A stretch of DNA of 45,594 nt, taken from the NCBI GenBank assembly GCA_947565635.1, contig CANOGU010000016.1, positions 1 through 45,594 on the forward strand, written 5' to 3'. Origin of the DNA: an uncultured Lactobacillus sp. Its GTDB lineage: Bacteria; Bacillota; Bacilli; Lactobacillales; Lactobacillaceae. Under the pieces are notes generated by a model. That model was not told the origin of the DNA. It worked only from the letters and a program-made list of their open reading frames with translations, and did not search any database. The position numbers and the translations under genes were made by a program. This document shows, in pieces, positions 5,681 through 45,473 of this stretch (its first letter is position 1; every line of letters starts with the position of its first letter).

Positions 5681-8600
5681 TCACCATTCAAGCCATTGAT
5701 TGCATCAGTAATAGCCTTTGCCGCATTGTCTACTTCTGCCTGAGTTGCATTAGTATTCTTTAAAATCTCTTGCCCAGCATTAATGGCATTATTAAGAGCT
5801 TCTTGATTTGCTTGGTCAGCGTTAGCATAGTTACCAGTTTCCTTAGCATTATTAGCATTAGTTAAAGCTGTTTCCAAAGCTTCAGTACTAGTAGTCTCAC
5901 CTTTAAGGTTATCTTTTGCTGCATTAATTGCATCTAAAGCATTCTTAACGTCACTTGCAAATGGATTTGTTTCATTCAAAACTGCTTGCCCAGCATTAAT
6001 GGCATTATTATATGCTGTTTGGGCTTCTTTACTACCGTTGTAGTATGCAGGCGTATTTCTTACATTTGGCGCATCCTTAACAGCAGCTTCTAAGGCAGCC
6101 TTGTTTGCAGCTTCAGTCTTAGCATCCCCATTTAGGTTATTATTTGCAGTTTCAAGATCTTGAAGAGCTTGGTTTACTTCTGCTTGAGTTGCATTAGTTT
6201 TATCTAAAACTGTTTGTGCAGCTGTAACTGCATTATCATATGCAGTCTTTTGAGTTTCGTCTGCATTAGTATAATTATTGCTTTCTTTTACAGTTGCAGA
6301 ATTGTCAACTACTTTTTGAAGCACTGACTTATCAGTTGCTTCACCCTTAAGATTACCCTTAGCAGTATTAATGGCATTTAAAGCATCAGTAATTTGAGTA
6401 GCAGTTGCATCTGGATTATCTAAAACTGTTTGACCTGCACTGATTGCATCGTCATAAGCAGTTTTAGCTTCAGCAGAACCATTGTAGTATGCTGCATCAT
6501 CTGATTTTACAGTAGGTGCTTCATCAACTGCCTTTTGAAGAGCTGCCTTACTTGCTGCTTTCTTAGCATCACCATTCAAAGCCTCTTTTGCATTATTAAT
6601 GGTGGTTAATGCATTATCTACTTCAGATTGAGTGACATTTTCTTTATTTAAAACTGTTTGACCTGCGCTAATTGCATCAGTGTAGGCTTTTTGTAAATCA
6701 GCATCCGCATTAGTGTAGTTATCGCTTGATTCTACCGTTGATGCTTGGTTAATAGCATCTTGAAGTTTAGTCTTGTTGGTAGGTTCACCAGTTAAAGCTT
6801 TTTGAGCTTTTTGAATGGCAGTTACGGCATTATCAACGTCAACTTGATCGTAATTATTTTGATTGGCGAGAATAGTTTTACCAGTTGAAATTGCATCAGT
6901 ATATGCCTTTTGAGCTTCTTCAGAGGCATTGTAGTAACTTGCTTTCTTTTCTTCGTCAGGAGCAGCAGCAACTAATTCTTGAAGAGTAGTAGTATTAAGC
7001 GCACGTAATGCTGCCACACTTTCAGTTTGAGCTGCTTCAACGAAATCTTTTGTAGCAGTCACTTTAACTTGCGTATCATCAGTCAAACTACTTGCAAGCT
7101 TGGATAAATTAATAGAGAAGTCACCACCAGTTGAAGCAGTTTTGGCAGCGTAATCAACATTGTTTGAAGTTACTGTGCCATTAGTATTGGTATTGGTATT
7201 GGTATTGGTGTAAACAGTGTAATAGTCGAGTACTGGCACATTAGTGCTTACTCCGCCAACGGTAACAGTTACATAAATTGGATTGTCACTACCACTTGAA
7301 GCTACAGTACCAGTCAATACATTATTCTTACTTAAATGAAGGTTAGATAGAGTAACATCTTCACCAGCCTTAACAAGATTAATCAAGTTCTTGTTAGCAA
7401 GACCTTCTCCAACTTGCTTAACAGTATCTTCATTTAAAGAAGTTATTGTATATGTCTTCGCATTACCATTTCTATCATAAGTTACATCAATTTTACCTAA
7501 AGGCTCTGAAGTAGTCCCATCAGTCGCCACTGTCTTCACACGACTAAAATTGATAGTACCGTTTTTAATTAATGATTTGCCAGTACTGGTATTTGCAGAA
7601 AGATCAATAGTAAATGAATCTGGTTGGTCTGAGGTGAATGTACTCCCAGATGATAAATTGATAGCAGTTAAAGCACCTGTACCGTCAGCACTAATCTTAA
7701 AGTTAGAGTGAGGCGCAAGTTTAACTGTTCCCTTACCAGAAATTGACATCAAATTATCGTTGTAACTTCCAGTATTAGTAGCACTTAAATTAAACTTACC
7801 ACCATTACCAACATTAATTGCTGCATTACCTGCAATGTATACGGGGTAACCATCATTTTTAGTACTGGGAGTACCGGTTGAATTGATATTCAAATCACCA
7901 TTTACATTAAGAGTGGCATCAGAATTTAAATATAAAGCACCAGCTACATCGCTATCACCGCTAGCTTTTTCAGTATTAATAGTTAAGTTAGCACCTTTAT
8001 CAACGTTAATTGTAGTATTGGCGTTTGAAGCAATCGCCCGGGCAATTGATCCAGTTCCAATACCATTACGATTTTCTGGATTTCCCTTAGAATGTGGGTT
8101 AATAGTTACATTAGCACCATTTTTAACGTCAATTGTAGCTGTACCACCATCAATTTCAAGTACATTTGAGTTGGTTGTCCCTAAGGTCACATTACTATTT
8201 TCATCAAAAATAATATGATTTGTTCCACCTACAAATTGAAGAATTTGCTGAGTATTACCACCTTGACTAGAACGTGATTCGCCATCAATTGGACTAGTAT
8301 ATGAGCCAACTGCAGTAGCCGTAACATTATTTTTAAATGTTAACGTAGAATTAATACTTGATTCAGTATAAATAAGCTGAGAACCTGCAAAGTTAACATT
8401 ATCAAATACATACCCTCCAGCATTATAAACAATACCCCAGTAACTACGCTCGTAAAGATCTAAATCCTTAAAGGTTACTGAGTTTTGAGTATTCATACTA
8501 AATGAATTTCCTGAGAAATCAATTGTATGTTTAACCCCAGGAGTAGCGGATTGAATCAAAATATCACGTTTATGACTAATAACTCTCTGTCTATAGTTAC

Positions 8601-9522
8601 CATCATATTCTGAAGCTAAGTTAAGATCATTTGCAACATTAATAGTAGTAGCAGTCCCATTTTGAATTGCATTAATAAATCCCTTAGCATCACTAACTGT
8701 TACTGCATTAGGATCTTCTGCTTCAGCTGCAAGTGCTCTAGTTGCCACTTTGCTTTCAGTAGCAGCTCGCGCACTAAGGAATGATGCATTCTTAACTGCA
8801 TCATTTACATTAAACGTATTAGTTGAAACCTCAGTAGTTCTATCAGTTACTGACTTATTCAAATCAGAAGAAGTATTAGTATCGGCAACTTTTTCTTCAT
8901 CAGTCTTTACAGTTTGAGTCTCAGTAGTCTTAGTATCTACATTAGGAGTAGCAGCTTCAGTCTTTACATTTTCTACTACTGTTTTATTAACATCAGCATT
9001 AGTATCTGTCTTAGCAACTGCTTCATCATTTTTCTTAGCTACATCATTAGTTGCATTGTTCTTTGTTTCTGCTTCCTTAGTAGCAGCTTCTTCAGTTTTA
9101 GCAGTTTCAGTAGTTGCAGCTTGCTTTTCATCTGACTTACTTTCAGTATTTTCACTACTATTATTAACCTCGCTAGCATTATTAGGAGTGTCAGCCTTGT
9201 AACTAGCAACAACAGTGCTGTGATCAAGATCATTAGTTACTGTACTTTGAGCTTGATTAGTATTTGTTTTATCTTCGTTATTTTGAGTATTAGTATCAGT
9301 ACTTTGTTTATTGTCTGTTTGTTCTTTATCGTGTGCATTTGCTACAACAGACTTATTGCCATTATCAACAGTATCAGCAGATGCTTGTTGTCCGTTATAT
9401 AAACTAAAACTTAGCCCGATTAAAACGGATGCAGCTCCCACACTAAATTTACGAATTGAGAAACGTTGTTTTTCGTCTCTCATTTTTTTATATTTCATTT
9501 CAATATTGTTTTTTGAAACCAT
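1..9522 (-). CDS. Giant YSIRK-type repeat adhesin (partial, C-terminus beyond window)
   Basis: The frame is open from the ATG at 9522 (SD GGAGG at 9528-9532) to the left edge, giving 3174 codons without a stop. Residues 21-36 read FSIRKFSVGAASVLIG, a YSIRK-type signal, and cleavage is likely after ASA at residue 49. Residues 50 to about 260 are a low-complexity T/E/N/K/D-rich stretch. About 280-780 is rich in short N/G/V/T strands, as in beta-solenoid (pectin-lyase-like) adhesin regions. FIVAR-like helical repeats span about 845-1285 and DUF1542-like repeats run from there to the edge. In this family the C-terminus normally carries an LPXTG sortase motif, but that part is not visible. The likely role is a cell-wall-anchored adhesin or stalk that holds the N-terminal head away from the wall. 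The binding partner cannot be inferred. Plus-strand open frames here are antisense shadows of the repeats. Confidence 0.93.
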   Translation of the reverse strand, partial: MVSKNNIEMKYKKMRDEKQRFSIRKFSVGAASVLIGLSFSLYNGQQASADTVDNGNKSVVANAHDKEQTDNKQSTDTNTQNNEDKTNTNQAQSTVTNDLDHSTVVASYKADTPNNASEVNNSSENTESKSDEKQAATTETAKTEEAATKEAETKNNATNDVAKKNDEAVAKTDTNADVNKTVVENVKTEAATPNVDTKTTETQTVKTDEEKVADTNTSSDLNKSVTDRTTEVSTNTFNVNDAVKNASFLSARAATESKVATRALAAEAEDPNAVTVSDAKGFINAIQNGTATTINVANDLNLASEYDGNYRQRVISHKRDILIQSATPGVKHTIDFSGNSFSMNTQNSVTFKDLDLYERSYWGIVYNAGGYVFDNVNFAGSQLIYTESSINSTLTFKNNVTATAVGSYTSPIDGESRSSQGGNTQQILQFVGGTNHIIFDENSNVTLGTTNSNVLEIDGGTATIDVKNGANVTINPHSKGNPENRNGIGTGSIARAIASNANTTINVDKGANLTINTEKASGDSDVAGALYLNSDATLNVNGDLNINSTGTPSTKNDGYPVYIAGNAAINVGNGGKFNLSATNTGSYNDNLMSISGKGTVKLAPHSNFKISADGTGALTAINLSSGSTFTSDQPDSFTIDLSANTSTGKSLIKNGTINFSRVKTVATDGTTSEPLGKIDVTYDRNGNAKTYTITSLNEDTVKQVGEGLANKNLINLVKAGEDVTLSNLHLSKNNVLTGTVASSGSDNPIYVTVTVGGVSTNVPVLDYYTVYTNTNTNTNTNGTVTSNNVDYAAKTASTGGDFSINLSKLASSLTDDTQVKVTATKDFVEAAQTESVAALRALNTTTLQELVAAAPDEEKKASYYNASEEAQKAYTDAISTGKTILANQNNYDQVDVDNAVTAIQKAQKALTGEPTNKTKLQDAINQASTVESSDNYTNADADLQKAYTDAISAGQTVLNKENVTQSEVDNALTTINNAKEALNGDAKKAASKAALQKAVDEAPTVKSDDAAYYNGSAEAKTAYDDAISAGQTVLDNPDATATQITDALNAINTAKGNLKGEATDKSVLQKVVDNSATVKESNNYTNADETQKTAYDNAVTAAQTVLDKTNATQAEVNQALQDLETANNNLNGDAKTEAANKAALEAAVKDAPNVRNTPAYYNGSKEAQTAYNNAINAGQAVLNETNPFASDVKNALDAINAAKDNLKGETTSTEALETALTNANNAKETGNYANADQANQEALNNAINAGQEILKNTNATQAEVDNAAKAITDAINGLNGDTNLANAKNAATEDIQKALDTKTTEITDATNIDQATKDQLIADAKKAAEDANTAINQVTNANAVNTAKTEGITKINNVKIPSLDDAKTNAAKEIDQALTDKTKEITDAENIDQTTKDQLIKGATDAATTAKDAIEKSTTNDEATKAGQAGVDAIKNIVPTSLDTVKSDANKAIDDALTKKLEEINSANNLTTDEKTALTQEANTAADKAKEEITNATTNDVVIEAQNNGVSAIDGIKVPTESAVKEAAKKAVADAATAKNNAIDASNLTNEEKAALKQKVTDAQNAADQAIDNATTNAAVTEAQTNGIKAINGIEVTTSTVKEAAKKAVADAATAKNNAIDASNLTDEEKAALKQKVTEAQNAADQAIDNATTNAAVTEAQTNGVNAINGIEVPTTSATKEHAITDLNAAVDDAKKAIDQDSNLTDEEKQAAKDQIDRDATKAQEAINNAKTNDDVKKAGDAGTLAIDKDVANAAIDNAVAGKKAEISKTPLTDEEKTALNNEVDQKAQEAKEAINNATTPEAVTTAQDSGVNNINETSVPSESAAKQAAKEAVAKAVDEKNAAIDSSNLTEEEKAALKQKVTEAQTAADQAIDNATTNAGVTEAQTNGVNAINGIEVPNKSDAKEQAITDLNTAVDNAKKAIDQDSNLTDEEKQAAKDQIDSDAKNAQDAINNAKTNDDVKKAADDGTLAIDKDVANAAIDNAVAGKKAEISNSSLTDEEKTALNNEVDQKANSAKDAINNATTPEAVTTAQGNGIKNINATSVPTTSTAKEAAKKAVAEAAEAKNSAIDSSNLTDEEKAALKQKVTEAQNGADHAIDNATTNAAVTEAKDNGISAIDGIEVPITSATKEQAITDLNTAVDDAKKAIDQDNNLTDEQKQAAKDQIDSDAKTAQDAINNAKTDNDVNNAVNSGKVAINKDVANAAIDNAVAGKLKEIQDPLTTEEKQAYTDLINSEATNAKQNIANATTVEEVTTAQNSGVDAINKIEVPITSTVKDDAIKAIDKALQNKTDEINNASNINPQEKTDLINQATEAANVAKNNINNATTNADVDTAQTNGEKAIADVTVPNLSDVKKESIDLVNKALDAKTAEINNASNLSQDEKQSLINDATNAATEAINNINESQTNDDAKAAATTGVQNIENVTIPTLDDAKKNANQAIDDALNSKVNEINNASNLNDTEKQKLVDQATEAATTAKNNVEKATTNDDARDAANAGIDNIKGITFTSLEDAKNAANTAIDNALQVKTDEINNASNLSTEEKQDLINQASEAAKNAKDNINNATTNDAVTDAQNKGIADIANVTVPSLAQAKQDAINAIKQVQDAKNKQISAASNLSAKEQKELSDQVDKIANDAIAKINDAATTTNDAVTAIRDDAIKQITDLFIPTLDGAQTDALNAIESAKNAKLNDINNAVHLTDQEKQALVDQTNKAADEATKAINAAQTNDEVKSAETAGLDIINNITIPTLVQKQQEAIEELNAARDAKNSAIDNAADLTTDEKNSLKDKVQAEYSNAVSNITSATTDEAVTTAKENGIAAIKDIQIPTKSPAKEQATTDLNAAVDDAKKAIDQDNNLTDEEKQAAKDQIDSDAKKAQEAIDNATTDDEVNSAVDNGKLAIDKDIANAAIDNAVAGKKAEISKSSLTSEEKADLNNEVDQKAKDAKEAIKAATTPETVTTAQENGIKNINDTKVPTESAAKEAAKKAVAEAAEAKNNAIDSSDLTNEEKAALKQEVADAQNAADRAIDAAITNTAVTEAQDNGIKAIDNVTVPTESAAKEAAKKAVAEAAEAKNNAINSSNLTAEEKAALKQKVADRQNAANTAIDNATTNAAVTEAEDNGIKAINSIEIPTKSDAKEQATSDLNTAVDEAKKAIDQDSNLTDEQKQAAKDQIDSDA
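5680..7000 (-). repeat. Six FIVAR-like repeats in the adhesin
   Basis: Six copies of about 70-75 residues share the pattern AY..AI..G..VL......V..AL..I..A...L.G. Two sub-types alternate: copies 1, 3 and 5 begin with YYN(A/G)S, while copies 2, 4 and 6 begin with Y(T/A)NAD. The block therefore looks like three duplicated dimers. FIVAR modules are helical bundles found in cell-wall proteins. Here they separate the solenoid-like head from the DUF1542 stalk. Confidence 0.75.
7183..7212. repeat. In-frame hexanucleotide microsatellite in the adhesin
   Basis: Tandem ggtatt units (one degenerate at each end) encode an alternating Thr-Asn run in the adhesin, at the edge of the solenoid-like region. 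Because the unit is six bases, changes in copy number would alter linker length without shifting the frame. Confidence 0.8.
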
Positions 9523-9597
9523 ATTTTCCTCCAACTTCAAAATTTAAGTTTGTTTAATTAGACAAGTTATTTATTCAAATTAGCTTAAATTTTAAAT

Positions 9598-33968: not shown

Positions 33969-34859
33969 ATGACTAAATTATTTAATAAACGACTCTTTAA
34001 ACAAATCTTCTTCATTACTCTAGGCTGTAGCATATATGCCTTTAGCTTAGATGCCATCAGCATCCCTAACAAACTTGCTGATGGCGGGATTAGTGGTATT
34101 GCCCTTTTACTTCGGTATTGGTTCCACATCAATCCAGGTTTATCCACGTTACTTCTAAATATCCCCCTAATTATAATCGGATATCGCTTTATGGGCAAAC
34201 GGCTCCTTGCCTTAACAATCTGGGGCACACTTTGCCTATCCTTCTTCTTATCCTTTTGGCTTCATCTTCCTATTATAAACCAATTAAATTTAGACCATGA
34301 TCTTTTTATTGCTGGTGTACTAGCAGGTTTGTTTTCTGGTGTTGGAATCGGTATTGTATTTAAATACGGCGGAACCACGGGTGGAACAGATATTATTGCC
34401 AGAATCTTAGATTTAAAATTAGGTATTCCAGTTGGAAAATCTTTGCTAGCTCTTGATGCATTTGTCTTAACGATTTCTCTTAGTTATCTTGATATTAAGC
34501 ATATGATTTATACTTTGCTAGCTAGTTTTGTTTTAGCGAGAATTACTGATTCTATTCAAGCTGGTTCCTATGCTGCACGGGGATTGTTTATTATTTCTGA
34601 TAAATATGAACAGATCGCTAAAATGATTGATGTTCAGCTAGATCGAGGATATACCTTCATAAATGCAGAAGGCGGATTTGATCGATCAGCTAAAAAAATT
34701 ATTTACTGTGTAATTTCACCGCGGGAAATTAGTCAGGTTAAAGAATTAATCTTGCGTGAAGATCCTAATGCCTTTGTTTCAGTTATCGATGTTCATGAAG
34801 CCCTAGGTCAAGGTTTTACTTATGAAAGAAAAAAGAGACATATTTTCTTTAGAAGATAG
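33969..34859 (+). CDS. YitT-family membrane protein (DUF161 + DUF2179)
   Basis: This 296-residue protein has five or six transmembrane helices in the first 200 residues. It includes the paired glycine-rich segments [14 protein letters not shown] (about 36-49) and [14 protein letters not shown] (about 127-140). A soluble DUF2179 domain (about 215-285) contains [13 protein letters not shown] and [13 protein letters not shown]. Function is unknown; members are widespread in Firmicutes. SD GAAGGAAG precedes the ATG at 33969, and a long palindromic terminator follows the stop. Confidence 0.9.
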
Positions 34860-34939: not shown

Positions 34940-35685
34940 TTACTTTTCGTCCGCTTTTTGTTTTAATTCTTGGATTTCTGTTTTTAGTTCTTGATTCTGC
35001 TTTTCAATATCATTTAGCTTTTGGATAATTTTTTCTAATTGGTCATCTTTTTTATTGGCATTTTTACTATCTTCTCTAATAAAGTAGGTCGTAATTGAAC
35101 TAGTCAAAGTTCCGATCACGCCGATCCCTACTAGCATTAAGACTAGAGCAACTATTTTTCCAACAAAAGTATGCGGTGAAATGTCCCCATACCCAACAAT
35201 GGTTGCAGTCGCAATCGCCCACCAAAAAGCCTGCGCTAATGAAACATGCTCAGTAATTGAATAAGTGATCGCTCCAATGATTAATAAACTAAGACTTGTA
35301 TATAACAAATAAACTAGCCCGTTAGTATACAGAATTTTCCGGAGTCTGCCGGTTAAACCAACTAGGCGCAGAACTCTAAGAAGTCTTGTAATTCTAGCAA
35401 CTCTTCCAATACGCGCAATTCTGAAAAATGCGAATAATCCATTGACTGGAATAATTGATAAAAGATCGAAAATATTATGCTTGACGAAACTCCCCTGTTG
35501 TCTGCCCTATACAGCCGGTAGAAGTAATCAATAGCAAAAATAAGCAGAATACTATCATCGATCCACATCCATATGCCGTTTGTTAGATTAATCACTGAAA
35601 CATAATCTAAAATTACTAGTATAATTGAAATCACGGCTAGAATTGCCATGCTGAAGTGATATATTTTTTCTTTTTTCGACATCAT
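34940..35685 (-). pseudogene. Potassium channel family gene, frameshifted
   Basis: The two halves of a voltage-gated-like channel are in different frames. The first (from ATG 35685) covers S1-S3 and continues until YRLYRADNR. The second covers an arginine-rich S4-like helix (RIARIGRVARITRLLRVLR), S5, the pore with filter TIVGYGD, S6 and a C-terminal coiled coil (EKIIQKLNDIEKQNQELKTE). Adding one base to the GGGG run (plus-strand CCCC, 35492-35495) joins them into 248 residues. So this is a one-base deletion, a sequencing error or a phase-variable run. An intact gene would make a cytoplasmic-membrane K+ channel. Confidence 0.85.
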
Positions 35686-35867: not shown

Positions 35868-36770
35868 TTATTTTGAATGACGACCCTTTCCACCAAAAAT
35901 TTTTCTCCAAAATTTCTTAGGGATAAAAAATATCCCAACCACTATACCTATTACTACAATACCCAAGTAAAACAAGCTACTATGGAAAACACTACTATGA
36001 GTATTTTCAACTTTATTTTGACTAGATGATCTTTTTCTTTCGTTAGTATTTTTCTTGTTAGAGTCCTTTGATTTTTTTGATCTATTAGTAGACACAGCTT
36101 GTTCTTGATCTTCCGGATCACTTACATTATCTATGCTTTGATCTTCTGTATCTTCCTTGTCTTCAGAAGACTGGTTTTTAGGATTTATTTTTCTTTCTCT
36201 AGGCATATGATTTTTCTTACACCATTCATCTACCGTCATCATCCCATGAAATTCGTTATTATCATCATAGTATCCTGGAGCTATATAACCATCACTTGTT
36301 CCATGGTAACCCTTATATTCCATCAAAGTCGTATTAATAATACCTTGTTGTTTTGGATCACCCCATCCAAAATTATTTTTTGAACGTTCTTCATATGCTT
36401 CTGCATCATAATATCCAGCCTTAAGATAAACAGCACCACTTTTATTATTAGGATCGACTTCTAAATCACGTCCGCCCCATGGATTACCTGCTATTTCAAG
36501 ATTGCCAATTTTCTCTGGTAATCGTCCCATATGAAAAAATTGTCGCTCTGGCACACCATTAACAACTTTAACAGTATCAACTTTGATTGTTTTTAAAAGC
36601 TCCCCAGTATCTTGATTAATACATTCCCAATATAAAGTTTGGGTAGTTACTTCTTTCTTTTCAATTTGCTGATCACTATTTTCATCAGCAAAAGCTATTT
36701 GACTAGGTGCAAAATTAATCAAACATAATAAAGATGAAATTACGGCTACTCCTCTAACTATTTTTTTCAT
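35868..36770 (-). CDS. Unrecognised secreted, C-terminally membrane-anchored protein
   Basis: The start at 36770 (MKKIVRGVAVISSLLC) follows GAGG with 6-nt spacing; alternative starts at 36776 (ATG) and 36782 (TTG) lie on the SD itself. Residues 1-28 form a signal peptide ending AFA. The extracellular part (about 29-175) is rich in Trp, Gly and Tyr (AGNPWGGRDLEV, KAGYYDAEAYEER, GYIAPGYYDDN). Its two cysteines (WEC, EWC) could form a disulfide. A Ser/Asp/Glu/Lys-rich stalk (about 185-255) leads to one transmembrane helix and a basic tail (KKFWRKIFGGKGRHSK). No LPXTG motif is visible. I do not recognise the family. Confidence 0.75.
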   Translation of the reverse strand: MKKIVRGVAVISSLLCLINFAPSQIAFADENSDQQIEKKEVTTQTLYWECINQDTGELLKTIKVDTVKVVNGVPERQFFHMGRLPEKIGNLEIAGNPWGGRDLEVDPNNKSGAVYLKAGYYDAEAYEERSKNNFGWGDPKQQGIINTTLMEYKGYHGTSDGYIAPGYYDDNNEFHGMMTVDEWCKKNHMPRERKINPKNQSSEDKEDTEDQSIDNVSDPEDQEQAVSTNRSKKSKDSNKKNTNERKRSSSQNKVENTHSSVFHSSLFYLGIVVIGIVVGIFFIPKKFWRKIFGGKGRHSK

Positions 36771-37060
36771 TACCATCCTCAATCATTTAAATTACTTCTT
36801 ATATTTTTTGTTATATAACTGCAATTATATCAAAAAACGGGCGATTAGCTAATCGCCCGTTTTCAACCGAAAATTATAATTTCTCCACAATCTTATCTGC
36901 TGCAATTCTACTTTTTTCACTAATTTACAAATATTACTATTTTTTCAAATTCATTAGCTTTATCATTCAAAGTACTTTAGCCTAAAACAACTTATCAATG
37001 ATCTGACTATTTAATACCATATTCATATCATCAAAAGTTGTTGATTATTATTGCCTTTTA
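36771..37060. other. Intergenic region with palindrome and possible gene remnant
   Basis: This holds copy 2 of the palindrome (36834-36863). To its right, minus-strand codons read EKSRIAADKIVEKL to a stop near 36876. They look like the tail of a degraded coding sequence, but no start or open frame leads into them. The rest is AT-rich with no recognised gene. Confidence 0.35.
36834..36863. terminator. 30-bp perfect palindrome (copy 2), likely terminator of the SIR2 operon
   Basis: The half-site AAAACGGGCGATTAG meets its exact inverse. Read on the minus strand it is followed by TT then GATATAATT, about 200 nt after the SIR2-protein stop. It matches copy 1 except for one position, which is changed in both arms (T-A to G-C), and shares the flanking CAACCG. 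Confidence 0.75.
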
Positions 37061-40000
37061 TTAATTTCGTAAATATTTTACTTCTAATTCCTTTTGATCT
37101 TCTGGCAAGAGAAATTGCTTAGTCACCTCTAAAAAATCTTTGATTAAGTCTTGGTAATTATTTTCAGCCATTTTTTTAACTACTTCGGAACAATTAAAAG
37201 TCAAAGAATGACTAATGACTAATAACCCATTTATAAAAAGACCTTCAATTACTTTAGCCATTAATCTTAGACTGTCTTTTGAATAACTCCTATCTTCTCT
37301 AAAATAGATATACGACATCTCATATTTTTTATTAATATATTTTCTATTTTGCAGTATTTCTTTAAAGATGAGCTCACAAGCAGAAGTATTATTTATATTT
37401 CTAGAGATTGCATTTAATACAATTTTTAATGCATCAGGTATATTTCTTAAATACCACCTAATCCAATCTAATACATTATTTTTTTCTTCCAATTCCTGTT
37501 CTTGTTTTAAAAAATAATTAATCATAGAACTAAATAAAAGATTCTTATATGATTCAGCTTTAATTGGTTTCTTTATGTTAGCTTGCATGGGCTTTATACA
37601 ATATATTAGTGTTAAAATGATGTTTTGTTTACAAAACTCATCTGAAAATTCCGTGTTAAGCAGTCGAGTTACTGCGTTTGTAGCCCTATTTGCTATATTT
37701 TCATTAATTCGATAACTATGAGAAAAGCCAATAAATTCATCTTCTGTAATAGGATTATCTTTTTCAAAGAAAATATAAAAACGACCTTTCATATATTCTC
37801 GTTCATGCTTAGATAACCTTAAAATAGTATCTTTAAATTTACTTTTATAATTTTTTTCAAAGTAACCCCTATCATTTTTTATCATATCATCAACTAATGA
37901 TACGTATTGATATGCTACAGTATTTACAAAGTCTTCTAAAGATATCCATTTAGTTTTATTTTCCTTATTATAGTAAAAATCAGAATTTTTAAGTTTAAAA
38001 TCATTGAATAAGTAATCGTATAATATTTTCTTTTGTTTAAGAGTGCCATTTATAGATATATATTTTAAAAATTCAAAATTATTACCAGGTAACACTGATT
38101 CTAAACAAAAATTAAAGCGGTTAAAATATTGTTTAACTATGTCAAATTCTAACTTATTAGTCTCTGCACCAGCAATCAGGATTTTATTTATCTCATTCAA
38201 ATAGTTTTTTAATATCGTATCATCACTGATTGCTTCTTCTAAAAAATAGTTATTAATGTGACTAAAATTTTTCCAACTCTCACTATTTTTTAAAACTTTG
38301 AGTAATTGTTCTTTTTGCCCAATTATATTTTTATCATCTTGTTTAGATTTTAAATTTAATGCCTCTTTCAAATTTTTAATAATCTTTTTTACATCTCTTT
38401 GATCAGTAGGTTGTTGCACTTCAAAAAACGGTCTATCTGGCGTTAAAGTCATATCAAAAGTATACCAACCATCAATATAATAATTCGATTTTATGTTCCT
38501 ATCTTTTGCAAACTTTTGAACAAATTTGTTCATTTCCTTGCCCATTAATTTATCATTAAAATCTATATTATTTAATAATTGGTCAAAATCAAATACTTTT
38601 GGAAAATTATCGCTTAAACTAAGATTTATCAATAACCTTTGAATCAATTTACTATCTCTATAGAAATACTTTGGAAAGGCACCAGATTTATACACAATCC
38701 GATTTTTCATAAACAAATACTCGAGTACTTTAATTGGTTCGTTCTCTAAAATCTGTTCAATTGATGTCTGTAATAACATTTTTTTCTTGTTCAAAATTTC
38801 TATTAACTTTTTCAAAGCTGCAGAAGAAAAGTTAAAAAGTATATTCTCATTTAATTCATATTCAACTAAATTATCAAAAGTATAAAAAATACTATTCTCT
38901 TCTAAGTTGACCAATAACCAAATTACTCGAGCTTCATTACTTGAGATATTGATTGGATAATATACTCGATTTAAAAATTTCTTACCATTTTCATATAAAT
39001 AATCAAAATCATTACGATATTTATACAAAATATTCATTGTATTTTCATCACCAAAAAATTCAGATGATTTTTCTATAATTTTTATTATTTTGAATCTAGT
39101 TTTCTCGTTTAGTTTTGAAAATTTTCTATTTACTTCACTCCAAAAATTGTGATAATACTTTCCCTTATTTAATTCGTTTACAAATTTACTATTATTGACG
39201 AGCAAATTAATACTATCTTTATTTAACCTATTTCTAAAGCAATCATCTATAAAAGTTTCCTCATTGAACAAAGCTCTAGTTATGTCTTTATTTAATTGAT
39301 CCAAATTATTTTTATCTATGTCGTCAATAAGCTCCTTGGCAGAAACAAATGCATGCTTTTCCTGATACTTATCGCTAATATCTTTATTCATTTTCTGCAA
39401 GAAAATTGGTAAATCAGAATAGTTATGCCCATACCATATAATTTCTATATTTTTCTCTTCTCTATAGTACTCTTTCACTAAATTAGCCTGATCTTCAGAA
39501 ATATCATCCCTAAGTTGCATCAACGCATACTTTTTTAAATTTAAACTATCTGATGAAAAGAGATTTAAAACCTCTTCTTCTTGAAGACTTGAACCAATAA
39601 ATAATAGCACATGTGCATTTTGTTTTATCAATTGCGTTTCTATTTTTTTCTTAGCATTATTATTATTCAAATATAATTGATTATATGAATCAGATGAACT
39701 AACTAATAAAACTCCAGGAGTAACAGGTGTTCCATGCATATGTAAAATAGATTTATCAGCTAATTTGTCAATATTTTCCAAAGCATTGATGTCTTTTAGA
39801 ATATTTGGACGTGATTGAAATGTCGCTTCATATGCTTTTTCTATTTGATTATCATAATTCGTAGTAATAAAAATCGCACTCAAATTAAGAACTTGATCAA
39901 TTATCTCATTGATCTTTTTTATTGGATTTATTTCAAGAAAATAATATTTTTCAAAATCGTTTACATGTTCTAAATATTTAGTTTTCTCTTCATCATTCTG

Positions 40001-40360
40001 AGCCATGGATTTACTCTTACAATACTTTTTGATCATATGATGAACCATATCAACTTTTCTTTTATTAGAATAGCCACTTCTATCATTTAGCCAGTCTAAA
40101 AAGCTAATATCAGTTGCCTGTACTGATGAATAAAATGAATTTTGTCCTAATAAATCTTGTAAATGGGTCTTCCAATACTGGATAAGATCTTGAACATACC
40201 CATTCCAATCTTTATATCCCTGAGAAATAGATGTTCCAGCTCCAAGAAAACACACAAGTGCATTATCTTCTTTGGTCGAAGCGAGTACATCAATAAAATT
40301 ATTATATTCTGCAGATGAATTTATTTTGGTTGAAACTAGGTTTTCAAACTCTTTATCCAT
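37061..40360 (-). CDS. SIR2-like NADase-type domain protein with long C-terminal region (candidate defence effector)
   Basis: This is a 1099-residue protein. The N-terminal domain (about 30-320) has the SIR2-like pattern: FLGAGTSIS (38-46), ITTNYDNQIE (165-174), ILHMHGTPVTP (205-215) and LLFIGSSLQEEEV. In ThsA and other defence SIR2 proteins the Asn of TTNYD and a downstream His are needed to hydrolyse NAD. The remaining 770 residues are helix-rich, very Lys/Asn-rich and match nothing I recognise; they may be a sensor or oligomerisation region. SD GGAG precedes the ATG at 40360. It starts 19 nt after the GIY-YIG/helicase gene, so the two form an operon. The inferred role is abortive anti-phage defence. 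Its high AT content supports transfer. Confidence 0.8.
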   Translation of the reverse strand: MDKEFENLVSTKINSSAEYNNFIDVLASTKEDNALVCFLGAGTSISQGYKDWNGYVQDLIQYWKTHLQDLLGQNSFYSSVQATDISFLDWLNDRSGYSNKRKVDMVHHMIKKYCKSKSMAQNDEEKTKYLEHVNDFEKYYFLEINPIKKINEIIDQVLNLSAIFITTNYDNQIEKAYEATFQSRPNILKDINALENIDKLADKSILHMHGTPVTPGVLLVSSSDSYNQLYLNNNNAKKKIETQLIKQNAHVLLFIGSSLQEEEVLNLFSSDSLNLKKYALMQLRDDISEDQANLVKEYYREEKNIEIIWYGHNYSDLPIFLQKMNKDISDKYQEKHAFVSAKELIDDIDKNNLDQLNKDITRALFNEETFIDDCFRNRLNKDSINLLVNNSKFVNELNKGKYYHNFWSEVNRKFSKLNEKTRFKIIKIIEKSSEFFGDENTMNILYKYRNDFDYLYENGKKFLNRVYYPINISSNEARVIWLLVNLEENSIFYTFDNLVEYELNENILFNFSSAALKKLIEILNKKKMLLQTSIEQILENEPIKVLEYLFMKNRIVYKSGAFPKYFYRDSKLIQRLLINLSLSDNFPKVFDFDQLLNNIDFNDKLMGKEMNKFVQKFAKDRNIKSNYYIDGWYTFDMTLTPDRPFFEVQQPTDQRDVKKIIKNLKEALNLKSKQDDKNIIGQKEQLLKVLKNSESWKNFSHINNYFLEEAISDDTILKNYLNEINKILIAGAETNKLEFDIVKQYFNRFNFCLESVLPGNNFEFLKYISINGTLKQKKILYDYLFNDFKLKNSDFYYNKENKTKWISLEDFVNTVAYQYVSLVDDMIKNDRGYFEKNYKSKFKDTILRLSKHEREYMKGRFYIFFEKDNPITEDEFIGFSHSYRINENIANRATNAVTRLLNTEFSDEFCKQNIILTLIYCIKPMQANIKKPIKAESYKNLLFSSMINYFLKQEQELEEKNNVLDWIRWYLRNIPDALKIVLNAISRNINNTSACELIFKEILQNRKYINKKYEMSYIYFREDRSYSKDSLRLMAKVIEGLFINGLLVISHSLTFNCSEVVKKMAENNYQDLIKDFLEVTKQFLLPEDQKELEVKYLRN

Positions 40361-40379
40361 AAATACTCCATTTCATTTT

Positions 40380-42200
40380 TTACTTACTAGCCTCTTCTAA
40401 TGCTTTTTGTAACTCTGGATCAACTGCATGAATGTATAGTCCATGAACTCCACGCGTCATTAACACATTAAATTCATTTTTTAGCAGAGTGTCTGCATAA
40501 CTTTTAGTAGAATCACGTTTCTGAGTAGCTTTACTATTGGAACTCTCTAGTGGATCATGAATAATATGTCCATTTCGATATTTTACAGATGGACCTAATT
40601 CCACACCCACATAATTAAGATCAAATCCTTGCACCGTATAAGTAGATCCGATCTCATCTATTGTGTAATCTTTTTCAGCCCATGACTGCTCACTATACTT
40701 TACAGATTTATGCGCTCTATGCTTACTTTCATACTTGTCTCTTCTATTTATTTCATAATTCCATGGCATATGCCATTTCCCTTCAGAGACTTCCCAGTAT
40801 CTTTGATTATCAGGTGGCTGTGTCTTTCCGCCAGAATAGTCCCAGTCAAATGTAGCAACCATTCTACTTATTCCATTTTTTTGATCACTATTCTTTTCTT
40901 GAATAGCTTTTTGCATTTCAGATGGATCTTTAAAAACCTTTATTTGGTAATTATCATCTTGAGGTACTTTATTAATCACACCATTATCTATTACATTTCG
41001 AATCCAATCTATTGTCGCCTGGGATGCATCAATTCTCATCTGATTGCTCAAATAGATAATATTATTTTTTCCTGCTTTTTCTTCTAATTCAGCAAAGTCT
41101 TTCTTTTCCCAAACTGAAGCCGTAGATAAAACCTGTCCCGGATCATATACTGCCATAATTACTTTGGCACGTTTCATAATATCTTTTAACATATTATTGC
41201 CATATTTGGCATAGGCTTGGTTTTTCTGTGTAAGTAATAAATGTGCTTCATCAATCAAGGCGATGTCTATCTTATTCTCAGGATCAACTTGCTTTATAAA
41301 AGTAGCAGGCTTTGCAACTTGTACTTGATCATCCTTATCAAAAAGTTTTTTCGATATTTCTTTATATACCTTGAGTTGTTCATCTTGATTAACTATCATT
41401 GCAACAGATAATCTTTGAGAATTGTCATCAATTTTTTGCTCATTAGCCGATATCTGATCTTCATGCACTAGATCGTAAAAAATATTACTCATCAAAACAG
41501 TTTTACCTGATCCAGCATTACCTTCGACCAAAATAAGCGCCCCTTCATCCAATTTTTGATTTTTCTGTTTAAAGAGTTCTTCATTTATATTATCTATAAT
41601 TTTTGCCTTCGCATTTAATTGTTCATTGGTCAGTTTATTAAACGGAGATGCCTTAAAAATAGCTGATGATTCAATTATTTTACGAGCTGGAAACAAAATT
41701 TGGTTTTTCTTTCCTAATTTTTTCCAAATGAGATTAAATAAATCATCAAATTCATCAGAATCATAATATCTATTTTGCTCATTATGACGTTTATTATTTA
41801 GACGATATACTGCCGGTACACTGCTAAGATATTGCATCATTCTATTTTCAATATCAAGAGTCATAGATTTATTAAAGTGTTCGTGTCCAATTACAAACAT
41901 ACTTACATTTTTTGAATTCTTTAAATGAAAAAAATCGTCTCTTTTAGCGGGATCTGAATCCAAGTGTTGCAATGTACGCCTTTGAATATCATTTGTTTCA
42001 CCAACATATACTGCATATTGTGAGTTATTTTTATTCATAGGATCATTTATTACATATACAGTAGGAAATTCTGTCAATAATACTTGCTTTTTTTCATCTG
42101 AAGCATATTCTTGATTAATCTTATCATTTAGCTGACTAGCGGTTTGAACATTATAGCTAGTTTCATATATGATGGGTGCTTTCAATTCTTTATTTACCAA
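40380..42200 (-). CDS. GIY-YIG nuclease-like domain fused to DUF2075 (Schlafen-type) helicase
   Basis: This 606-residue protein has a GIY-YIG-like module at about 45-120: TVYVIN, YAVYVGETNDIQRRTLQH (62-79), and a possible catalytic Glu in LDIENRMM. Then comes an SF1-like ATPase of the DUF2075/Schlafen-group-3 type. Visible are Walker A EGNAGSGKT (226-234), Walker B ALIDEAHLL (DEAH 317-320), AVYDPGQVLS, LSNQMR, TVQGFDLNYVGV and NVLMTRGVHGLYI. The start is probably TTG at 42200, since an in-frame TAA lies just upstream. A strong SD 44 nt away faces other short frames. It is the first gene of an operon with the SIR2 protein. The inferred role is recognition or processing of foreign nucleic acid. 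Confidence 0.82.
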   Translation of the reverse strand: MVNKELKAPIIYETSYNVQTASQLNDKINQEYASDEKKQVLLTEFPTVYVINDPMNKNNSQYAVYVGETNDIQRRTLQHLDSDPAKRDDFFHLKNSKNVSMFVIGHEHFNKSMTLDIENRMMQYLSSVPAVYRLNNKRHNEQNRYYDSDEFDDLFNLIWKKLGKKNQILFPARKIIESSAIFKASPFNKLTNEQLNAKAKIIDNINEELFKQKNQKLDEGALILVEGNAGSGKTVLMSNIFYDLVHEDQISANEQKIDDNSQRLSVAMIVNQDEQLKVYKEISKKLFDKDDQVQVAKPATFIKQVDPENKIDIALIDEAHLLLTQKNQAYAKYGNNMLKDIMKRAKVIMAVYDPGQVLSTASVWEKKDFAELEEKAGKNNIIYLSNQMRIDASQATIDWIRNVIDNGVINKVPQDDNYQIKVFKDPSEMQKAIQEKNSDQKNGISRMVATFDWDYSGGKTQPPDNQRYWEVSEGKWHMPWNYEINRRDKYESKHRAHKSVKYSEQSWAEKDYTIDEIGSTYTVQGFDLNYVGVELGPSVKYRNGHIIHDPLESSNSKATQKRDSTKSYADTLLKNEFNVLMTRGVHGLYIHAVDPELQKALEEASK

Positions 42201-42249
42201 AATATTAAAGTCTCTCTTTTATACATAATCTTTATTACATACTCTCCTT
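42194..42249 (-). promoter_or_regulatory. Unusual leader of the GIY-YIG/SIR2 operon
   Basis: A strong SD (AAGGAG, 42244-42249) is followed 3 nt later by ATG-TAA (start-stop), then by a 10-codon frame (MYKRETLIFW, 42226-42194). The end of that frame overlaps the TTG start at 42200. This may couple or limit translation of the operon. Confidence 0.4.
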
Positions 42250-42342
42250 AAAAGATATCATAATTGTGTCTGTTGAGATATATTAATTCTATGTTTTTTG
42301 ACTATTTTACATAATAAAAAATATGAACAAAACAAAAAAAAC

Positions 42343-42363
42343 TGGCCAACAAGCCAGCTTTTT
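42343..42363 (-). terminator. Terminator after the TPR protein gene
   Basis: CTGGC pairs with GCCAG around a short loop. On the minus strand a run of T follows (plus-strand A run at 42333-42341), just past the stop at 42367. Confidence 0.7.
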
Positions 42364-42366
42364 CTA

Positions 42367-43626
42367 CTACTCTTCACTATTCAATTCATCTAACATATCT
42401 TGCATATCAAGATCATCTGGTTGAATTTGCAGATACTTCTTAATCAATTCCTTAGTTGTTGGAATTTCACGCAATTCATAGAACAAGCTAATCATCTGTC
42501 TCAAGAAGCTTGCATTATTTTGAAAGGCTGGATAGGCAAGTAAGAATTCACTCTTAGCCTTATCATAATCTTCAAGTCTTTGATAAGAAACAGCCAAATT
42601 CCAGTGAGCTTGTGGCTCTAACTCTTCATCATCAAGATCCTTGAACAAGCTAATATTAGCCTCATCTTGATGCTGGTGAAGGTATAAGTTAGACAACTGC
42701 AAGCGCAAATCACTGTTATCAGGAGCAACCTCAAGTCCCTTTTTAAGCAAGCGTTCTGCTTCATCCAATTGATTCAAGTTAGCAGCAGCTTTGGCACCTA
42801 GACTATACAAAACTTCATCCAATTCGTTATAAGATAGACCAGTTTGCGCAGTTCTGAGCACTTCCTCATTATTGTCTTCTGCGGCATAAGCTTGGGCAAG
42901 AAGTGGATAGGCATTTACATAATCAGGTTGAGTTTCGATTACTTGGTCTAGGTACTTAATTGCAGCCTTATTATCGTTAGCAGAAAGCATAATTAAGCCA
43001 GCTTCATAAAGAGCATCAATACTTAAAATATCATTTTCATGACTCTTAATTTCATTTGCTGCTTCTTCATACTCACCTAATTTAGCAAGACAAGCTGCAA
43101 TTCTTTGACTTAAAACTACTTCACCAAAAGTCTTATTATTTTTAGCTAATTTCCGGTATAAGTCTAAGGCTTCGCTGTAGTCACCGCTAAGATAGTCTAA
43201 TTCAGCCAAGCCAAAGTTAATGGCATCTTCATCAGGAGCTAATTTATGGGCTTCTAAGAGTTTTTGATGGGCTGTTTCAATTAGTCCATTACTTTGATAG
43301 TAATCAGCTAAATCAAGCAAACTTTCAAGGTAAGCATCACTATCTGGCTTTACATCATAAAGGAGCTGCAAGCCATCGTCTTCATCCCCATCATTTAACA
43401 AAATTTCAGCTAAATAGACCTTAAACAAGTCTTCTTTAGGAAACTGTCCAATCAAAAAGCGGTAAACTTCTTTAGAAAGATCAGTAAAACCAAGATCAGT
43501 TAAGTTTTCAGCTAAAGAAGCAAGGATTTCTGGGTCATCATTATCCAACGCCTTTTTCAAGAGAATTCGATTATCAGAAAAATCATGATTTTGAATTGCA
43601 TCTAATAGTTGTTCAGAATAAGTCAT
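42367..43626 (-). CDS. Tetratricopeptide-repeat protein
   Basis: The 419-residue cytosolic protein begins MTYSEQLLDAIQNHDF and consists of about ten TPR units, such as APDEDAINFGLAELDYLSGDYSEALDL-type helices and AHWNLAVSYQRLEDYDKAKSEF-type helices. It is very acidic. I chose the ATG at 43626. The longer frame from 43668 would begin at a GTG inside a probable -10 (TACAAT, 43660-43665). The protein is conserved next to hup and der in lactobacilli. The role is presumably protein-protein interaction; partners are unknown. Confidence 0.88.
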   Translation of the reverse strand: MTYSEQLLDAIQNHDFSDNRILLKKALDNDDPEILASLAENLTDLGFTDLSKEVYRFLIGQFPKEDLFKVYLAEILLNDGDEDDGLQLLYDVKPDSDAYLESLLDLADYYQSNGLIETAHQKLLEAHKLAPDEDAINFGLAELDYLSGDYSEALDLYRKLAKNNKTFGEVVLSQRIAACLAKLGEYEEAANEIKSHENDILSIDALYEAGLIMLSANDNKAAIKYLDQVIETQPDYVNAYPLLAQAYAAEDNNEEVLRTAQTGLSYNELDEVLYSLGAKAAANLNQLDEAERLLKKGLEVAPDNSDLRLQLSNLYLHQHQDEANISLFKDLDDEELEPQAHWNLAVSYQRLEDYDKAKSEFLLAYPAFQNNASFLRQMISLFYELREIPTTKELIKKYLQIQPDDLDMQDMLDELNSEE

Positions 43627-43670
43627 TTTTTCACTCTTTTCATTTGTGCTCTCACAATAATTGTACACAA

Positions 43671-43706
43671 AAAACGTGCCAAGCTATACAACTTAGCACG
43701 TTTTTA
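43671..43706 (-). terminator. Terminator of the HU gene
   Basis: AACGTGCTAAG pairs with CTTGGCACGTT around an AT-rich loop with a T run, just downstream of the stop at 43727. Confidence 0.85.
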
Positions 43707-43726
43707 TTTTGCTAGTAACTGAACAA

Positions 43727-44002
43727 TTACTTAACAGCATCCTTAAGAGCCTTACCTGGCTTGAATGCAGGAACCTTAGAAGCTGGGATTTCGATTTCAA
43801 CCCCAGTTTGTGGGTTACGACCCTTACGAGCTGCACGGTGACGTACTTCAAAAGTACCGAAACCGATCAATTGAACTTTTTCACCCTTAGCAAGATCTTC
43901 TTGAATAGAGTTAAAGATTGCATCAACTGCAGCAGCAACTTCTTTCTTGGTTAAGTCAGTTTTAGCAGCAACTTCAGAAACTAATTCTGCCTTGTTTGCC
44001 AT
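43727..44002 (-). CDS. hup: DNA-binding protein HU
   Basis: This 91-residue histone-like protein begins [20 protein letters not shown] and has [21 protein letters not shown], the DNA-binding beta-arm, and a typical C-terminal [13 protein letters not shown]. It bends and compacts DNA as a dimer. SD GGGAGGTG precedes the ATG at 44002. A likely promoter with TTGCAA (44118-44123) and TAATTT (44094-44099) lies upstream, and a strong terminator follows. Confidence 0.96.
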
Positions 44003-44165
44003 TCCACTTCACCTCCCAAAATGAACTAATAATATTTTTAAACAAAACCTTTGAAAATAAGAAAAATGAGTTATTCATTTATTCCCTGCAATAAAATTAG
44101 CACACTAAGACGCTTAGTTGCAAGCTTTTTCGCAGATATATCCCTATTTTTTTGAAATTTAAGGC

Positions 44166-45473
44166 TTATTTACGTTTTCTAGCTAAGATTTTAATTGGTG
44201 TTCCCACAAAATCAAAGTTTTGTCTTAATTGATTAATTAAAAATCTCTGGTATGAGAAGTGAAGCAACTCTGGATCATTTACAAAGACAACAAATGTTGG
44301 CGGAGTTACTGCCACTTGGGTCATGTAGTAGATTCTTAATCTCTTTCCATTAACAAGTGGAGTTGGTGTAATTCTAGTTGCTTCAAGAAGTAAATCGTTC
44401 AAGACACTAGACTGAATTCGACGAGTTTGATCTTCATGAACTTCTTTAACAAGCTTCAAGATATCTGGAACTCTTTGACCCGTCTTAGCAGAAACGAAAA
44501 TAATTGGAGCATAGTCTAAGTATTGGAACTCTCTTCTGATTGTATCTTCAAAGTCCTTCATACTTCTACTGTCTTTTTTAGGTAGATCCCACTTATTTAC
44601 AACAATAATTACACCGCGGCCTGCGTCATGAGCATATCCAGCTACGTGCTTATCTTGTTCACGAATACCAGTACTTGCATCTAAGACTAAAAGTGTAATG
44701 TCACTTTCTTCAATAGCACTGATCGCTCTTAAGACAGAATACTTTTCAGTCTTCTCATAGACCTTACCACGCCGTCTGATACCGGCTGTATCAACGATAG
44801 TATACTTTTGCCCATCATTGGTAAAAGTCGTGTCAATGGCGTCTCTAGTCGTTCCTTCGATATTAGAAACAATTACACGTTGTTCACCTAAAATAGCATT
44901 TACAAGTGAAGATTTACCGACATTTGGACGTCCAATCACACTAAAGCGAATTGAATCATCTTCATGTTGGTTAGCCTTGTCTCCAAATTCACCAACAATA
45001 GCATCTAGTAAATCACCCATTCCAGTTCCATGACTACCAGAAACTGGGATTGGATCACCTAAGCCTAAGCTGTAAAAATCATAAATATCTGTTCTTTGCT
45101 CAGGATTATCAGCCTTATTAATGGCCAAAATAACTGGCTTTTTAGTTCGATAAAGCATTTTAGCAATTGTTTCATCCATGTTAGTCATATGTTGAGTAAC
45201 ATCCCCTAACATCACAATTACATCTGCTTCATCAATGGCAATTTCAGCTTGTGCCTTAATTTGTTCTTCAATTTCACCAGAGTCTAGAGTAATACCACCA
45301 GTATCAATCAGGATAAATTCATGACCCATCCATTCAGCACGGGCATAAATTCTATCTCTAGTAACTCCAGCCTTATCTTCAACAATAGCTACACGAGAAT
45401 TAATAATTCTGTTAAAAATAGTCGACTTACCAACATTTGGACGTCCAACTAATGCAACTACGGGTAATGACAT
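44166..45473 (-). CDS. der: Ribosome assembly GTPase Der (EngA)
   Basis: The 435-residue protein has two tandem GTPase domains and a C-terminal KH-like domain. Domain 1 shows [13 protein letters not shown] and NKAD. Domain 2 shows GRPNVGKSS near residue 182, [10 protein letters not shown] and NKWD. The KH-like part (about 350-435) ends [12 protein letters not shown]. It is needed for 50S subunit maturation. SD AAAGGGG precedes the ATG at 45473. The order rpsA-der-hup is conserved in lactobacilli. Confidence 0.96.

Follow-up and report, generated by a model that had tools for sequence, protein, structure and literature searches.

The HEL-SIR locus

The DNA analysed here, called the window below, is a 45,594-nucleotide (nt) stretch from an uncultured Lactobacillus sp. 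(contig CANOGU010000016.1 of assembly GCA_947565635.1), and makes up an entire contig (C16) of a 1.64-Mb genome that is estimated to be 80% complete. An earlier note, made from the letters alone, had singled out two genes 19 nt apart as a candidate two-gene phage defence system, and the list of open reading frames (ORFs) confirms both genes, which are on the minus strand, and their spacing (Table 1). We call the upstream gene, which encodes a predicted nuclease-helicase, HEL and the downstream gene, which encodes a long protein with an N-terminal SIR2 domain, SIR. We lean, with modest confidence, towards the reading that these are two adjacent but separately competent anti-phage genes, probably transcribed together, in a defence hotspot of the Lactobacillus chromosome, where different SIR2 genes have on at least two occasions come to fill the slot behind HEL.

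The site is recognised by its flanks. The left-flank genes are ones that we take from their sequences to encode a TPR protein, HU and Der, and the right-flank membrane protein is presumably DUF161/YitT-like. TPR is present in 73 of the 75 genomes of the genus, and we compared 16 further TPR regions. Behind Der-HU-TPR, three of these 16 congeners carry type I restriction-modification genes recognised by Pfam (HsdR-HsdM-HsdS in G037; HsdM, an integrase and HsdR in G257; a SNF2 helicase and HsdM in G124), three (G347, G070 and G357) carry genes matching those of G037 in size and assigned by size alone, seven have no insert, and three have other genes (L185, L186 and L188). The right-flank gene stands directly after TPR at L179, L182, L184 and L187, and at L180, L181 and L183 TPR is followed by the gene that comes after the right-flank gene. 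Because the cargo behind TPR varies or is lacking, we regard the site as a hotspot where some congeners keep defence genes, HEL-SIR being one of its fillings. The description of the segment as AT-rich and accessory thus holds on both counts, since the guanine-plus-cytosine fractions of SIR (0.259) and HEL (0.321) are below that of the window (0.347), and since the site is empty or differently filled in related genomes.

HEL and SIR are probably co-transcribed. A scan of positions 36700-42500 on both strands found four terminator-like sites against 0.9 expected from shuffled sequences, with none on the minus strand between HEL and SIR and none behind SIR; promoter-like sites were no commoner than in shuffles (36 found, 38.9 expected). 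Upstream of the TTG start of HEL (42200-42260) lie an AAGGAG, then an ATG-TAA and another tiny ORF, possibly a leader. At the far end of the window, the minus strand of positions 1-9540 holds a 3180-codon open frame that runs off the contig end.

Table 1. Positions of the genes and sites of the HEL-SIR locus in the window
Feature	Position	Strand	Basis or remark
HEL, 606 amino acids; GIY-YIG domain and C-terminal SLFN group 3 (DUF2075) helicase	40380..42200	-	TTG start as called
SIR, 1099 amino acids; N-terminal SIR2 domain and large C-terminal region	37061..40360	-	ORF call, Pfam
Gap between HEL stop and SIR start	40361..40379	-	19 nt; GGAG before the SIR ATG
Promoter-like site ahead of HEL	42257..42286	-	matches 9/12
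Terminator-like hairpin and T-run between HEL and the upstream TPR gene	42331..42368	-	
Conserved left flank of the hotspot (TPR protein, HU, Der)	42367..45473	-	
Right flank of the hotspot (membrane protein)	33969..34859	+	

Domains and relatives of the two proteins

Residues 48-122 of HEL match the GIY-YIG family PF01541 (3.6e-6, 27.6 bits with a cut-off of 22.6; the domain spans about 48-136), and residues 221-594 match SLFN-g3_helicase, PF09848 (1.4e-88, 298 bits with a cut-off of 24), which we take to be the former DUF2075; a GIY-YIG module fused to a Schlafen-type helicase, as the note had it, is therefore what the profiles return. The GIY-YIG signature comprises the GIY and YIG tyrosines and a catalytic arginine and glutamate. 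In an alignment of 109 distinct full-length HEL homologues (distinct over their last 400 residues; 143 before that filter), Y49, Y65, G67, R75, E118 and N136 of this domain are invariant and H79 is kept in 99%, and in the helicase part G227, G230, G232, K233, D317, E318, H320, R389, Q524, G525, R583 and G584 are all invariant. HEL thus carries the residues expected of a GIY-YIG nuclease and is predicted to be one, and its profile match above cut-off and its retained motor motifs likewise mark it as a predicted Schlafen group 3 helicase. It appears to be a group 3 helicase only, since Pfam finds no Slfn/AlbA_2 core RNase domain in it at E up to 10. PADLOC gives it weak matches only (PDC-S14, 3.5e-6, to the GIY-YIG part, and mad8, 4.2e-5), and its ratio of non-synonymous to synonymous divergence (dN/dS) of 0.06-0.09 indicates strong purifying selection. 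At L099 two HEL-like genes stand in tandem (580 and 569 amino acids), the second being 22% identical to the window HEL.

The predicted N-terminal SIR2-like domain of SIR is borne out by a match of residues 163-308 to SIR2_2 (PF13289, 5.8e-13), the domain spanning about 30-330. The motifs named beforehand (GAGTS at 40-44, TTNYD with its N168, and HMHG at 207-210, besides K233 of HEL) are all there, and G40-A41-G42, S44, T166, N168-Y169-D170, H207, H209, G210, G256 and S258 are shared without exception by SIR and five relatives. H209 is likelier to be the catalytic histidine, because in the SIR profile the second histidine of HxHG falls opposite the only histidine of LHG in 7uxt. No second Pfam family rises above its cut-off in the remaining C-terminal region of about 750 residues, and at E up to 1 the PDB returns nothing for a profile of that region, taken from residue 380 onwards. 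The region behaves like an independent module, because in G516, G564 and G608 (L143, L192 and L191) overlapping ORFs encode a SIR2 protein of 357-365 amino acids and a separate C-terminal module of 762-763.

Thirteen long-SIR2 loci were collected, the window included, from 6 of 301 family genomes, 9 of 395 order genomes (three shared) and one plasmid. Two of them (the window and G192) lie beside HEL and the other 11 do not, those of G380 and G516 being judged on short flanks only. Some adjoin known types of defence gene (ResIII/Eco57I genes at L070, two GmrSD_N genes at L073). The plasmid relative of SIR, from Enterococcus, had no HEL seen beside it; no relative of SIR was found in phage records, nor in genome_contigs or viral_contigs by scans that required a short conserved pattern.

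Neither PADLOC nor Pfam nor NCBIfam gave a named system for the HEL-SIR pair, as had been surmised, and each known system that it recalls differs in some respect. DSR1 and DSR2 resemble SIR in being proteins of 1000 or more amino acids that join an N-terminal SIR2 domain with NAD-site residues to a large C-terminal region, but the window SIR lacks a Dsr profile match and its C-terminal region has no detectable relative of solved structure; a SIR relative at L070, 23% identical to it overall, does match PADLOC Dsr1 (5.3e-15). ThsA of Thoeris shares the SIR2 domain (PADLOC ThsA1, 5.9e-12; PDB 8wc0, 0.0067), but no TIR gene directly adjoins SIR, whose direct neighbours are HEL and a 304-amino-acid protein without a Pfam match at 1e-4, Pfam finds no SLOG domain in it, and its C-terminal region is far longer. 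SIR2-HerA likewise sets a SIR2 protein beside a motor ATPase, but the motor in the window is a GIY-YIG-fused SLFN-g3 (PF09848) helicase and not of the HerA/FtsK type. In Kongming (KomA/B/C), too, a SIR2 effector is linked to a protein resembling nucleotide pyrophosphatases, and among solved structures the SIR profile matches KomC remotely (3.7e-7), along with 7uxt, FAM118B and ThsA; HEL, however, is by Pfam not of the KomA or KomB type, and the clade to which it belongs has no adjoining gene of the MazG-like kind (below). The closest solved structure by sequence is FAM118B (1.7e-8, residues 97-330), a human antiphage-like sirtuin (PMC12700824), but its chains of 298-371 amino acids lack the long C-terminal region of SIR.

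The literature searches, outside whose reach preprints and most subscription papers lay, found no paper that joins DUF2075 with GIY-YIG or with SIR2, no study of a nuclease-fused DUF2075 helicase, and no paper with DUF2075 in its title or abstract among those mentioning it; among the papers listed, PMC10952713, PMC12839542 and PMC3710099 included, neither the HEL-SIR2 nor the HEL-MazG-like pairing turned up.

Genes that accompany HEL

At E up to 0.001, HEL has matches in 247 of the 301 genomes of the family, many of them limited to the helicase part, and its close nuclease-fused form (1e-60) is present in 13 of 75 congeners. It is also found in 12 plasmid records, where the match takes in at least 80% of the query, and in four phage records, all below 60% identity. 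The sample of 109 is non-random: it was assembled from the best family hits, genus hits, 29 class-level loci (with 1.5-kb flanks), 10 genome_contigs loci and two plasmids, with one genome per species, mostly Bacilli, although some of the 10 genome_contigs loci come from the same species. Counting genes within two genes and 500 nt as neighbours, 63 HELs have a MazG-like neighbour, three a SIR2 neighbour and 42 neither, and one lies at a contig edge. HEL-MazG-like, not HEL-SIR2, is the recurrent association, a two-gene cassette mostly seen in Bacilli (L056, L069 and L131 among them). The idea that HEL always has a partner is discarded in view of the 42 loci with neither.

The MazG-like gene lies up- or downstream of HEL, on the same strand in 53 of the 63 cases, and encodes a protein of about 105 amino acids; both members scanned match PF12643, and E35, E38, E63, D66 and K89 are invariant in all 63 sequences. 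Its profile matches 4qgp (1.2e-27) and dCTP pyrophosphatase 1/RS21-C6 (4.2e-16 to 4.7e-15; dCTP, deoxycytidine triphosphate). This predicted enzyme resembles the all-alpha dCTP pyrophosphatases DCTPP1/RS21-C6 in this match and in its invariant glutamates and aspartate, but differs in being bacterial and in standing beside a nuclease-helicase. The label was assigned by a profile built from 13 HEL neighbours and applied alike to HELs and to helicase-only DUF2075 paralogues, a hand-picked set in which none of 20 had such a gene within three genes (one locus being short). The difference (63/109 against 0/20, with the one contig-edge row omitted) has a Fisher p of 3.5e-7, and in these 20 paralogues a MazG link general to DUF2075 helicases is not seen. 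No MazG-like gene adjoins HEL in the clade of ten formed by the window HEL and the nine closest to it in the tree.

Known defence families occur among 123 sampled HEL neighbours (ResIII four times, Cas9 and NOV_C three times each, GmrSD_N and type IV restriction enzymes twice each). At 1e-15 these neighbours, a random part of 297 eligible genes from 82 loci, matched 108 PADLOC families, against 14 for 123 control genes drawn from 208 in 15 arbitrary 20-kb regions. This enrichment is only indicative, since the counts are of families and not of matching members, models of related families overlap, some of the matches among the controls are generic (mad3 in 7), the Pfam scan covered the neighbours alone, and genes were called simply as longest ORFs.

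Separate defence genes or one system

The three HELs with an adjoining SIR2 gene belong to one Lactobacillus clade and occupy the same site. In G192 HEL is 93% identical to that of the window and open, and the same SIR2 gene has several stops and a frame change (for which sequencing error is possible). In G171 HEL is 83% identical and is followed by a different SIR2 gene, present as ORFs of 600 and 364 amino acids and 25% identical to SIR over the SIR2 domain only. Because these two ORFs together resemble (at 41% identity) a single 985-amino-acid open frame in G334, unbroken there, the G171 gene is taken to be split, by mutation or naturally; the G334 gene sits about 570 kb from the HEL of that genome. 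At the same site in G148, HEL (83%) is followed by an unrelated 198-amino-acid gene. DNA similarity of the window to G148 and G171 spans HEL up to a point 12-16 nt short of the end of the ORF, and that to G148 resumes at an ion-channel-like gene. This last gene (34940-35685) is two ORFs of 107 and 122 amino acids in the window and one 242-amino-acid ORF in G148 (L051). The 198-amino-acid gene (L051:8517-9113) was considered as a third effector for its HEPN-like RNAIKH stretch and dropped, as it matched nothing above cut-off in Pfam, PADLOC, the PDB or the plasmids. Synonymous divergence (dS) between window and G192 is 0.34 for HEL, 0.23-0.43 for pieces of SIR and 0.19 for TPR. The pair seems to have shared history there, but HEL was kept where SIR was lost.

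These observations bear on the alternative that HEL and SIR2 form a true two-gene system, in which HEL, on recognising or processing phage DNA, activates an NADase whose SIR2 part is exchangeable. The short same-strand gaps (19 nt in the window, 7 nt in G192 and 25 nt in G171), the two SIR2 families in one slot, the end of similarity just inside the HEL ORF and the similar dS of the two genes all fit such a system, as do the numbers for the genus, where three of the 11 SIR2_2 genes (in 10 of 75 genomes) stand behind HEL though so few congeners carry its close form; yet SIR2 adjoins only 3 of the 109 HELs, SIR is broken in G192, the SIR2 of G171 is split and its single-ORF relative is remote from HEL, and both SIR2 families also occur without HEL. 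We regard this alternative as unlikely, though still a serious one. The earlier note's proposal of a two-gene defence system accordingly survives in part: plausible defence proteins, a hotspot with restriction-modification genes in congeners and the lack of an intervening same-strand terminator stand, and a conserved pair does not, given the 3/109 HELs, the 2/13 long-SIR2 loci and the open HEL beside a broken SIR in G192. As for co-occurrence of homologues, two SIR2 families do lie directly behind orthologous HELs at one site, but no recurrence across genera was seen in this sample of one genome per species, mostly Bacilli, the three cases among the 109 being confined to one genus.

It is improbable, in our estimate, that HEL, with its MazG-like partner where there is one, is a DNA-repair or nucleotide-pool maintenance cassette, leaving SIR alone as a defence gene. 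The strong purifying selection on HEL and the frequency of metabolic genes among its neighbours agree with such a role, and MazG/DCTPP1-type enzymes are described in PMC7162842 and PMC10014863 as housecleaning or pool-balancing; the patchy presence of HEL among congeners, its occurrence on plasmids, and the Cas9, ResIII, NOV_C, GmrSD_N and type IV restriction genes near it speak against it. We hold it very improbable that the two genes came together by chance in a crowded hotspot and that SIR is already decaying in this lineage, since, for all the broken and split SIR2 genes of G192 and G171 (sequencing error being possible) and the low guanine-plus-cytosine content of SIR, the window SIR is a full-length open frame whose piecewise dN/dS of 0.15-0.43 indicates past constraint.

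The reading of two separately competent anti-phage genes has difficulties of its own. The defence function suggested for HEL is drawn from its neighbourhood and domains only, and ordinary metabolic genes are common among its sampled neighbours; PADLOC gives the window SIR no Dsr match at E up to 10, and the SIR relative in G469 lies near SufB/D-type genes, which are not known defence genes. Two different SIR2 families directly behind orthologous HELs, on the same strand and at 7-25 nt, would by chance be expected with P about 4e-7 among 1900 genes, 0.006 among 15 assumed defence slots and 0.03 among 6, the slot numbers and 10 independent SIR2 gains being assumptions. Finally, because their dS is similar, HEL and SIR are consistent with having travelled together. 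All of these count against this reading.

If the two genes do act separately, HEL would load on foreign DNA, unwind it and cut it through its GIY-YIG domain, and the MazG-like enzyme, where present, would act on dCTP or modified dCTP, lowering or cleaning the dCTP pool. SIR would be a stand-alone sensor-effector like the DSR proteins, in which a phage structural protein triggers NAD loss: its C-terminal region may detect a phage component and release the SIR2 domain, which would then hydrolyse NAD (nicotinamide adenine dinucleotide) and so stop the infected cell. In the clade without an adjoining MazG-like gene, different SIR2 genes would have taken the slot behind HEL at least twice.

A broader proposal, which we consider doubtful, makes HEL the sensing and processing hub of a defence family not yet described, whose small-molecule effectors can be exchanged: many Bacilli would use a MazG-like enzyme of the dCTP-pyrophosphatase type (nucleotide starvation), and in one Lactobacillus clade SIR2 NADases from two families would have taken its place (NAD starvation). 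DUF2075 helicases are common, and the cassette of HEL and a DCTPP1-like MazG protein deserves study of its own. HEL together with its dCTP-pyrophosphatase-like gene offers a candidate two-gene defence system open to direct testing, and from the SIR2 slot in Lactobacillus one would learn whether a defence hub is able to change the metabolite that it destroys.

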